The notes beneath the pieces were generated by a model, which ran no database searches, was not told where the DNA came from, and was given only the letters and a program-made list of their open reading frames with translations. Made by a program: the position numbers and the translations under genes. Positions 3,032 through 23,328 of a stretch of 36,210 nucleotides of DNA are shown piece after piece. Origin of the DNA: Candidatus Baldrarchaeota archaeon (GTDB taxonomy: Archaea; Asgardarchaeota; Baldrarchaeia; Baldrarchaeales; DXJG01); assembly GCA_016840485.1 (NCBI GenBank), contig JAEOSG010000011.1, forward strand, positions 1-36,210, read 5' to 3'. The stretch's first letter is position 1, and each line of letters opens with the position of its first letter.

Positions 3032-4243
3032 TTATATTTTTGTTAGTATTTCCTGTGCAGCTTCTAGTCCTACTCCGAGTTTAATTTTGTATCCACATTT
3101 CATTAACGAGTTTTCTATCGCGGCTATCGTTGCTAAAATGTCTGTTGGTTGAACTGTTCCCATGTGACCTACTCGGAAGATCCTGCCTTTAAGTTTTCCA
3201 AGTCCCCCCAGCGACTATAACCCCGTTCTTCGCCATGTTTTTTCTAAACTCTTCGTCTATTACTCCTTCAGGATAGTATACTCCTGTTACAGTATTTGCG
3301 GCATATTCTTCGCTTATAGGTACTATTTGTAGTTCTAGTGCTTTTAGAGCTTCTCTAAATGCTTTTGCAATTGTTTGATGTCGTTTAAATCTTTCTTCTA
3401 TCCCTTCTTCTAGAATTTGCTTTACACTTTCGTATAATGCGTATATCATATTTACCGGTGGTGTTGCAAAGTAAGCTGCTTGACCTTCAGCGTATGCGTC
3501 CATTATGGGTTTCCATAGACCGATATCCATGAAGTATGATTTTACTGGTTCTTTTCTTTTCTCGTATGTTTCTAAAGCTTTTGTGGAAAAGGCTATTATT
3601 GCTAGTCTAGGTGGGACTCCCAAGGCTTTTTGTGATGCTGTAAATAGTATGTCTATATTCCATTCGTCCATTCTTTCCTCTTCTCCAGCTGTTGCACATA
3701 CGCCATCAACTATGAAAACCGTATCTGTATTTTTCACGATTTTCCTATTTCTTTTACTTTAGCTGACACACTTGTGCTTGTGTCTACGTGTGTTAGGGTT
3801 ACTGCTTTGTATTCCTTCCTTTGCATCTTTTCCCTTACAGTTTCCGGCTGTATGTTTTCGCCCCACTCCTTTACTTCAACATAATCTACTTTAAGATTGT
3901 ATCTTTCGCATATTTCTTTGAATCTCTCTCCAAAGTAGCCGTTTGAAAGAATAAGTACGTTATCTCCCGATTCACATATGTTTACAATTGCCATTTCCAT
4001 GGCTAGAGTTCCGCTTCCAGCTACAACGAAAATCTCTCCCTTTTCGGTTAAGAAAATCTTTTTTAGACCTTTAAGAGTTTTTGAGAATATTTCTATGAAT
4101 TTCGGGCTTACATGAGATAAAGTTGGTTTGCTTAAGGCCCTTAGAACTTCTGGATCACAAATTATAGGTCCTGGTATCATTAAAAGCGGTCTTCCGATTT
4201 TCAAGTTTCTCTCCCCCATTTCATTTAGAATAGTGGTTGACAT
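3032..4243 (-). pseudogene. Class V (alanine/serine-glyoxylate type) aminotransferase, two frameshifts
   Basis: A PLP-dependent class V aminotransferase of the alanine/serine-glyoxylate or phosphoserine type, split over three frames. Segment 1 (4243 down to about 3740) encodes the LLMIPGP N-terminus and AGSGTLAME PLP-phosphate region and stops at TGA 3736-3734. Segment 2 (about 3739 to 3208) carries FIVDGV and the PLP-lysine motif TASQKALGVPP, then stops early. Segment 3 (about 3207 to 3032) supplies the C-terminus including RIFRVGHMGTV. One extra A in the A4 run at 3740-3743 restores EIGK-IVKNTD; removing one base of the C6 run at 3204-3209 restores VIVAGG-LGKLKG. The repaired product is about 403 residues, close to family length. 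The middle frame is clearly the native one, so this is not a compensating pair. It may be a pseudogene or an assembly error. Confidence 0.88.
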
Positions 4244-4317
4244 AAAAGTTTAATTGACTTTCGAAGAGGTTGTTCGATTGGTATTTGTTTTAATAGGTAT
4301 TACTACATTTCGATGCA

Positions 4318-4325
4318 TTTATAAG
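4318..4325 (+). promoter_or_regulatory. TATA box of the zinc-ribbon/LURP-one gene
   Basis: TTTATAAG centred near 4321 predicts transcription start near 4347-4349, giving a leader of about 20 nt that contains a near-consensus ribosome site GGAGTTGAT (4356-4364) before GTG 4369. The spacing is inferred from general archaeal promoter geometry. Confidence 0.55.
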
Positions 4326-4368
4326 GATGCAAGCCAAATAAAATATCAGATATCCGGAGTTGATTAAA

Positions 4369-5034
4369 GTGGATTTTTGTCCACACTGTGGAAGTAAAAT
4401 CGATGTTCCAAGTGTAAAATTTTGTTCGAAATGCGGGCAACCACTAGCTGACGAAGTTGTATCTTCACCACCTACTCGCGGCGGTCTTTTGGATCCCTCA
4501 AGGAAATATTACTTTGTTAAGGAAAAACACTGGGACCTAGGTTACGGAGACATATATGATGAACATGGAAATATTATTGGTCGTATGCATCGTAGATTGC
4601 TCTCTTTGAGAGCTTTAATAGAGCTTAGAGAAGCTGATAATCAAACAATGGTCGGTGCGGTTCATAGAAAAATTGTTGCGCTGCGTCCAACTTATGATAT
4701 TAAGGATGTAAACGATAGGCTTGTTGGTAGGGTTGCTAAAAAGCTTTTGAGCTTCTTCCGACCGTCTTTGTGGCTTGAAGACGAAAATGGCAGGAAACTT
4801 TTGACTGCAAAGGGCAATTTGTTTGGCTGGGACTTCAAGATATTTGATGATAAGAATAATTTAGTGGCTACCATTAGTAAAGCCGATAGGCTCAGGGACA
4901 TATTTCTTAGCGGTGTTTTTGATTACAGCGACAAGTATGCTGTCCATGTTGTTAAGGACGATGTAGATAGATTACAGTTGCTTGGTTTCGTAATTGCAAT
5001 AGACAACATAGTTCACGATAAAAGACGACGATAA
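4369..5034 (+). CDS. Zinc-ribbon protein with a LURP-one/Tubby-C-like domain
   Basis: A 221-residue soluble protein. The N-terminus is a double-CxxC zinc ribbon (CPHCG and CSKCG, residues about 4-24). The rest is a beta-rich repeat-like region built of short strands such as YDEHGNIIGRM, YDIKDVNDRLVGRV, WLEDENGRKLLTA and FKIFDDKNNLVATI; this pattern fits the LURP-one-related/Tubby-C-like fold, which is structurally related to phospholipid scramblases. The start is GTG 4369, not the upstream TTG 4360, because the ribosome site overlaps the latter. No catalytic motif is visible and the function is unknown. It is a single gene, divergent from the broken aminotransferase and convergent with the transporter. 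The LURP-one assignment rests on strand pattern only and needs a profile search. Confidence 0.72.
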   Translation: MDFCPHCGSKIDVPSVKFCSKCGQPLADEVVSSPPTRGGLLDPSRKYYFVKEKHWDLGYGDIYDEHGNIIGRMHRRLLSLRALIELREADNQTMVGAVHRKIVALRPTYDIKDVNDRLVGRVAKKLLSFFRPSLWLEDENGRKLLTAKGNLFGWDFKIFDDKNNLVATISKADRLRDIFLSGVFDYSDKYAVHVVKDDVDRLQLLGFVIAIDNIVHDKRRR

Positions 5035-22194: not shown

Positions 22195-22674
22195 TTACTT
22201 TGTCTGAACTTTTAATGGCATTCTAAGTTCTAGTATTCTGTTTTTAAATTTCTTTTTGATATTGTTAATGTCGATGTCTCTTTCCATTTCGATTTCGTGA
22301 ATTAATTGTCCTTTACAAAATATTTTGACTTTTCTGTTTTCCACGTGGAAGCTTACGTCCTTTTCGTCTAGTGTTGGCACTTCTGCGATAACTATGACTT
22401 CATTTGCTGTTTGAATAACATCGTTGAGAAAGTCTTGAGATTCTTGCATAGTTTGTGTTGTTTTATCTATGGTCGACATGTAGTTATTGAATGTCGGTGG
22501 ATACCTTTGTTCTTTTATTATCCTTTTACCGTTGGGTAATGTGATTTCTACTTTTTCGTATCCAAAGACTTGCGTGTTTTGAGGGTTAATTTTCGAGGTT
22601 ATCATGAAGTTTTTTATCATTTGTCTAAGTATTTCTCTCATTTCCTTTTCTAGGTCGTCTTCCCAATCTTTCAA
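22195..22674 (-). CDS. hsp20: Hsp20/alpha-crystallin-type small heat-shock protein
   Basis: A 159-residue small heat-shock protein. The acidic/basic helical N-terminal arm (1-90) precedes an alpha-crystallin-like beta-sandwich (about 88-155): EVIVIAEVPTLDEKDVSF, VENRKVKIFC, then the final strand ILELRMPLKV, matching the conserved VxLPxxVD/LxVxxPK layout loosely; the canonical GVL box is RILELRMP. Members hold unfolding proteins as oligomers. Start is TTG 22674, placed by AGAGGTG 7 nt upstream. It is divergent from a winged-helix protein across an operator-like array that overlaps its expected transcription start, so control by that neighbour is likely. Confidence 0.84.
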   Translation of the reverse strand: MKDWEDDLEKEMREILRQMIKNFMITSKINPQNTQVFGYEKVEITLPNGKRIIKEQRYPPTFNNYMSTIDKTTQTMQESQDFLNDVIQTANEVIVIAEVPTLDEKDVSFHVENRKVKIFCKGQLIHEIEMERDIDINNIKKKFKNRILELRMPLKVQTK

Positions 22675-22697
22675 GTTATTACACCTCTTGATGTTAT

Positions 22698-22731
22698 GTC
22701 ACTAATAGGTGACCAATGTCACCTATAGGTG
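22698..22731. promoter_or_regulatory. Triple overlapping dyad operator between hsp20 and the winged-helix gene
   Basis: Three dyads overlap with centres exactly 10 bp apart. Dyad 1: GTCAC-n6-GTGAC (22698-22713, centre 22705.5). Dyad 2: ATAGGTGAC-caat-GTCACCTAT (22705-22726, centre 22715.5). Dyad 3: palindrome CACCTATAGGTG (22720-22731, centre 22725.5). The block lies between the shared TATA at 22739-22747 and the hsp20 start. Each dyad thus faces the same side of the helix. Confidence 0.78.
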
Positions 22732-22738
22732 GGTAACA

Positions 22739-22747
22739 TATATAAAG
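22739..22747 (+). promoter_or_regulatory. TATA box, possibly bidirectional
   Basis: TATATAAAG reads as a TATA box on the plus strand, predicting a transcription start near 22770; on the minus strand CTTTATATA can serve hsp20, with a start near 22717 inside the operator. Confidence 0.6.
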
Positions 22748-22821
22748 TTAACGTTCTCATTTAATCTCTATGGGAGGGAACAACAATAACCAGGGAAGAA
22801 ATTGAAAAAGAAATAGAGAAA

Positions 22822-23328
22822 ATGATCGAATTGTTAAAGGTCCTATCAGGGAAAAACTGCTTAAAAATACTTCAAGCACTCAGCGAACCAAAATATTGGT
22901 CTCAATTAATTGAAGAACTAAATATGCATAGATGGGTGCTTAAAAAATATATAGATAAACTTCTTCAATGCGGCTTAATTGAATCATTTATAAAACCTGT
23001 AGAACGCGGACCACCTAGAAGATACTTTCAAATATCTCGTAATCTGACACTTCTTTTAGAAGTATCACCTGAAGGCGTACATATACACCAATTTGCATTG
23101 CCCCGTATAAGAAACATCCGTGAAATTTTTAGGAAGTATCCTTCAATTAAAAAGATAGTTGAGGAACTTAAAAAAATGGAGCAAGCATCAACTCCCTTTA
23201 GGCAGGAAGAGCTTATAGAACAGCTTAAAAGGCAGATAGAGGAGGAATTATCTACGTTAAGTGTAGCGATAGATTTTCTCAGAGACTTATTGAAGCAGTT
23301 AGAAGATCTAGTAGTTAAAAAAGCTTAG
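22822..23328 (+). CDS. Winged-helix transcriptional regulator
   Basis: A regulator with an N-terminal winged helix-turn-helix (about 1-75: LKILQALSEPKYWSQLIEELNMHRWVLKKYIDKLLQCGLIES, then the wing VERGPPRRYFQIS) and a C-terminal helical/coiled-coil part rich in Glu, Lys and Arg (about 110-165) for dimerisation. It is most like ArsR/MarR-type archaeal regulators. Divergent from hsp20, it is a candidate heat-shock repressor analogous to Phr of Pyrococcus; that role is inferred from context. The ATG at 22822 has no ribosome site. The frame is open upstream, and GGGAGG (22772-22777) sits 8 nt before an in-frame ATA at 22786, giving TREEIEKEIEK at the N-terminus. The true start is therefore uncertain. 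Confidence 0.83.
   Translation: MIELLKVLSGKNCLKILQALSEPKYWSQLIEELNMHRWVLKKYIDKLLQCGLIESFIKPVERGPPRRYFQISRNLTLLLEVSPEGVHIHQFALPRIRNIREIFRKYPSIKKIVEELKKMEQASTPFRQEELIEQLKRQIEEELSTLSVAIDFLRDLLKQLEDLVVKKA

Follow-up and report, generated by a model that had tools for sequence, protein, structure and literature searches.

A conserved array of four GTCAC/GTGAC half-sites (22698-22733) lies between an hsp20 gene and a divergent winged-helix gene in a genome of the Baldrarchaeota (Asgard archaea), and we consider it likely to be the operator of that winged-helix protein, a homologue of Phr that would act, in the manner of the Phr/HSR1 family, as repressor of hsp20 and as autorepressor through a lineage-specific, doubled site and would be released by heat. 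A conserved pair of sites on the hsp20 start, next to a Phr-related gene, is very probably a temperature-controlled off switch. Positions are those of the window, the stretch of 36,210 nucleotides that was analysed. Our comparison set consists of three Baldrarchaeal promoters from MAG assemblies (G000 with 8% contamination): that of the window, and those of the nearest named records, Candidatus Baldrarchaeota MAG_95 (L036; ~70% protein identity) and Candidatus Baldrarchaeum yapensis (L037; 44-47%). The pair of divergent genes, hsp20 on the minus strand and the winged-helix gene on the plus strand, is kept in both relatives.

Architecture of the array

Read from the sequence, the half-sites are h1 GTCAC (22698-22702), h2 GTGAC (22709-22713), h3 GTCAC (22718-22722) and h4, a degenerate GTGGG (22729-22733), whose counterparts in L036 and L037 read GTGAT and GTGAC, respectively. 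They form two tandem dyads whose centres are separated by 20 bp: dyad 1 (GTCAC-TAATAG-GTGAC, 22698-22713) and dyad 3 (GTCAC-CTATAG-GTGGG, 22718-22733), the latter with a perfect palindrome of 12 bp, CACCTATAGGTG. The putative assignment of the whole array as an operator draws on its conserved geometry and position. A middle dyad, GGTGAC-CAAT-GTCACC (22708-22723), uses half-sites of the outer two. An earlier note on this DNA had placed the three dyad centres at 22705.5, 22715.5 and 22725.5, exactly as we find them, and had let the array run from 22698 to 22731; the start stands, but the end has to be moved, since the full h4 extends to 22733. The equal 10-bp spacing, from which the note had argued for cooperative binding, carries no weight of its own, since any two palindromes in tandem at a distance of 20 bp produce a further dyad at their midpoint. 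The 20 bp is thus the single free number, and the middle dyad probably just follows from the tandem repeat. Nor do we retain the idea that all three sites are occupied together: the middle dyad takes one half-site from each outer dyad and therefore excludes them, so that at most two dimers fit. On the conserved 20-bp repeat, which is about two turns, these two dimers would lie on about the same DNA face, and cooperative binding along that face is therefore plausible.

Conservation of the array

All four half-sites recur at offsets 0, 11, 20 and 31 in the orthologous promoters of L036 (2880-2915) and L037 (798-833), at the same promoter position, and the 20-bp dyad repeat is thus kept in three of three Baldrarchaeal genomes. 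As an independent test, the same four-half-site geometry scores 19/20 and 18/20 in these two promoters, and none of 20,000 dinucleotide shuffles per intergenic region attains the observed score. Scored by dyad symmetry alone, with half-site sequence ignored, the tandem has a shuffle frequency of 0.006 in the window, which is weak, and is not significant in the two relatives. The significance sits in the conserved half-site sequence together with the geometry, not in the symmetry. The comparison with related genomes that the earlier note had proposed thus finds the half-sites conserved, and the dyads, as judged from these alignments, are real.

The array is also singular. A pattern of the four half-sites written from the window alone, and allowing up to three mismatches, finds one place each in G000, G001 and G003, always the hsp20/regulator promoter (on both strands, the array being palindromic); one of the two matching relative genomes belongs to another family. 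G002 gives no match to the pattern, nor do four Asgard genomes that are more distant, and the reversed pattern, used as a control, has none in the window genome and a single one in G024. The middle dyad, as GTGAC-N4-GTCAC without mismatch, occurs once in the 3.2 Mb of the window genome. A sequence model of the dyads, with 150 first-look candidates scored per genome, gives no second convincing place. A wider Baldrarchaeal regulon was considered and rejected, the only extra match (G000:C90:27771) being weak (E 3.8), lacking a fitting gene start and best put down to chance. A second hsp20 gene adjoins a thermosome gene in Baldrarchaeal genomes (L073, L074, L075), and the dyads, which were sought there, are absent. 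The operator therefore does not define a global heat-shock regulon in Baldrarchaeia, and heat control must differ at the thermosome-linked gene.

Promoter geometry

The hsp20 gene (22195-22674, minus strand), the probable target, encodes a small heat-shock protein of the archaeal Hsp20 type by its NCBIfam match (NF041800, E 1e-14, under the curated cut-off); Pfam yields a weak CS match and nothing stronger. Its Shine-Dalgarno-like AGAGGTG lies at 22682-22688 (minus strand; CACCTC is conserved). The three-genome alignment places a TATA box, TATATAAA (TTTATATA toward hsp20), at 22739-22746, which apparently serves both genes and whose ATATATAA columns are invariant; on the hsp20 side it is flanked by a BRE-like element, GTTAAC (22747-22752). 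Archaeal promoters follow a 26-nt rule for the distance from TATA box to start. Counted from the centre of the box, this rule puts the computed hsp20 start at 22716.5 (minus strand) in the window, at 2896.5 in L036 and at 813 in L037, in each case no more than 2.5 bp from the centre of the array. The earlier note's view that the array covers the hsp20 start agrees with the predicted geometry, with the array spanning about -16 to +19 and dyad 1 lying at +5.5/+16.5 in the window and at +3.5/+14.5 in L036. The same box predicts a regulator start at 22768.5 (plus strand), with regulator leaders of 12-18 nt in the three genomes. The gap between array and TATATAAA-type box is 5 bp in the window and 1-5 bp across the three genomes.

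This arrangement bears on two other readings. First of all, the dyads could form an RNA thermometer in the hsp20 leader that masks the Shine-Dalgarno sequence, and the half-site CACCU is indeed able to pair with AGGUG of that sequence; h3 and h4, however, fall before the predicted start and hence are not part of the leader, and are nevertheless conserved, which makes a role in RNA highly improbable. Folding of the hsp20 leader gave energies at shuffle level (z -0.5 to -1.1), a shared hairpin was not found, and the thermometer was rejected. Second, the protein might activate its own gene from the array while repressing hsp20, since on the plus strand the array precedes the TATA box of the regulator, as with archaeal activators, and at the short distance just given. 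Phr and HSR1, on the other hand, are described as autoregulated repressors (PMC9133787), and in the f10 group of Asgard relatives the regulator gene has a separate dyad near its own start; we regard activation as quite unlikely.

The divergent winged-helix protein

Repression thus remains our preferred reading, and its probable agent is the product of the divergent gene (22822-23328, plus strand). NCBIfam gives Phr_regulator as the best family (E 1.2e-7, 31.5 bits), far short of the curated cut-off (320 bits; model type 'exception'), and the protein is therefore a relative of Phr and not Phr itself; Pfam gives weak ArsR-type matches, below the curated cut-off. A profile built from 18 Asgard relatives has PDB 2p4w, which we take to be Phr of Pyrococcus furiosus, as its top match (E 6e-32) over nearly the whole length, and a profile restricted to the three Baldrarchaeal proteins still reaches it at 2e-5, with the next match at 0.048 and none other below 0.01. 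Judged by these profiles, the regulator is homologous to Phr over the wing and the C-terminal part. The likeness to Phr that the earlier note had seen in the layout therefore goes further, to the winged-helix protein itself. The Phr structure paper is cited in PMC10746257. An AlphaFold model built with three sequences has low confidence (mean pLDDT 56, with the winged-helix part below 50) and for that reason was not taken into a fold search.

The regulator's frame stays open upstream of ATG 22822, and the N-terminus of its relative in L036 aligns from ATA 22786, a position at which L036 has ATG. A Shine-Dalgarno-like GGGAGGG (22772-22778, plus strand) stands 7 nt 5' of this ATA. The gene may have an AUA start, or encode a shorter protein, or contain a sequence error. 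Downstream of the regulator, the window has a W/Y-type class I tRNA synthetase gene; in L036 a synthetase of this kind is on the opposite strand, and the regulator is followed by a 452-aa frame (3652-5010) that by eye is of homing-endonuclease type.

As the earlier note had proposed, the divergent protein is the best candidate binder of the array. Its recognition-helix region reads NMHRWVLKKY, against GQQAILRHL in the f10 relatives, and the link between protein and operator therefore rests on neighbourhood and conservation. Binding by some other transcription factor would make use of just this indirectness, and of the difference in recognition helix from relatives that carry the HSR1 motif. 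However, the site occurs once per genome and always beside the regulator; G002 (84% complete), which lacks the site, also lacks such an hsp20 and an ortholog-level regulator, its sole regulator match being weak and in a much longer frame. Furthermore, the f10 relatives show a like arrangement with related half-sites. We thus consider another binder distinctly improbable.

For the divergent protein as repressor, we infer the following course of binding, repression, autorepression and release by heat. At normal temperature one or two repressor dimers would occupy the tandem GTCAC-N6-GTGAC dyads and, in a Phr-like manner, block the recruitment of RNA polymerase to the TBP/TFB-TATA complex. The array abuts the shared TATA box, and autorepression is therefore expected, the regulator's own transcription being damped by the same binding. 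Heat would free the operator of repressor, and both hsp20 and the regulator would then be made.

Relatives in other Asgard archaea

Among 30 Asgard loci surveyed around relatives of the regulator, with Pfam checks on representatives, 22 have a heat-shock or protein-quality gene adjoining: a divergent hsp20-type gene in 10, a cdc48-type AAA gene upstream in five, dnaJ in three (two of them with a thermosome gene close by), grpE with dnaK in three and a PAC2 gene in one. In the remaining eight, no heat-shock neighbour was recognised within the stretch fetched.

The hsp20 promoters of the f10 group carry ACTAAC/AGTCAC-type half-sites in tandem dyads with centres 14 bp apart, and one-turn phasing is therefore no rule of the regulator family. 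Loci L011, L012 and L013 have exact CTAAC-N5-GTTAG, the HSR1 motif, at the hsp20 start; the downstream dyad, GTCAC-ATAAT-GTTAG, is at roughly +3/+14 relative to the predicted start, a place similar to that of Baldrarchaeal dyad 1; and the regulator's own start has a single related dyad. Searching the genomes for ACTMAC-N5-GTKAGT gives 0-3 places per genome, including the start of an HtrA-like protease gene in two genomes. The reversed control finds 0-2, so that the count by itself is not significant and the positions are what is informative; the f10 regulator probably controls the HtrA-like genes as well. These genes, of trypsin + PDZ type, lie at 547-1506 of L065 and 1527-2474 of L069, each with a perfect ACTCAC-N5-GTGAGT dyad at its start. 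The f12 regulator promoter has a different inverted repeat, TATACAACTTGA...TCAAGTTGTATA, read by eye, which is apparently a third operator type within the family. This repeat is long and stands at the promoter of a regulator-grpE-dnaK operon (L025 1969-2200; L031 and L032, 1-60).

The f10 sites also bear on which dyad is the real unit. The middle dyad, GGTGAC-N4-GTCACC, might be the actual core, bound by a single dimer, with the outer half-sites as extra contacts or weak side sites: in three of three genomes its symmetry equals or exceeds that of the outer dyads, and the predicted hsp20 start falls at its centre. The Phr site likewise has three parts, at about -10, start and +10 (PMC9133787), in keeping with such a core. 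Against it, in the HSR1 motif and in every f10 site CTAAC or GTCAC comes first and GTTAG or GTGAC second, across N5, which is the order of the outer dyads (N6) and not of the middle one. Also, for winged-helix dimers, an 11-bp distance between half-sites suits better than the 9 bp of the middle dyad. We thus judge a middle core unlikely and keep the two outer dyads as the binding units.

Implications

The only named transcription regulators of the archaeal heat-shock response are Phr and HSR1, both from Euryarchaeota (PMC9133787, PMC10653856), and in Sulfolobus a conserved binding motif was searched for and none was found (PMC10653856). Our literature search, of partial coverage and hence weak as evidence, found no paper on Asgard heat-shock regulators. 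A conserved Asgard regulator-operator pair would extend the Phr/HSR1 system to relatives of eukaryotes and, since both the protein and the DNA site of 36 bp are defined, makes in vitro study possible without culturing the organism. It is possible, and we put it forward tentatively, that Phr/HSR1-type repressors are general heat-shock regulators of Asgard archaea whose operator, spacing and targets have been rewired by lineage, with recognition helix and half-site changed together in Baldrarchaeia. The targets would then be hsp20 only in Baldrarchaeia, hsp20 and an HtrA-like protease in f10, and elsewhere possibly dnaK/grpE, cdc48 or the thermosome, and in Baldrarchaeia a pair of dimers, bound two turns apart, would make the thermal switch steeper.

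Comparison with Phr and HSR1

We take the motifs of both known systems from one review (PMC9133787). Phr, a repressor, covers the start region and stops the recruitment of RNA polymerase (PMC9133787). The Baldrarchaeal system resembles it in the homology of the protein over the wing and C-terminal region, in a site that overlaps the predicted hsp20 start and in the three-part layout. It differs first of all in operator sequence: the half-sites are GTCAC/GTGAC, and the TTTA/TGGTAA/AAAA of Phr is absent from the array; a different sequence had been remarked on in the earlier note. Second, the Baldrarchaeal site consists of two tandem dyads 20 bp apart. Third, one target promoter was found in Baldrarchaeia, whereas for Phr the number of genes is about ten or higher. 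The motif of HSR1 from Archaeoglobus fulgidus, CTAAC-N5-GTTAG (PMC9133787), is absent from the array, which has GTCAC-N6-GTGAC instead. The two agree in half-site order and type of spacing (N6 against N5), in the linked hsp20 and in the autoregulatory layout, and the Asgard f10 relatives carry the HSR1 motif itself. The Baldrarchaeal system, on the other hand, has GTGAC in place of GTTAG, a doubled site, and a divergent gene pair where HSR1 has an operon with hsp20 downstream.
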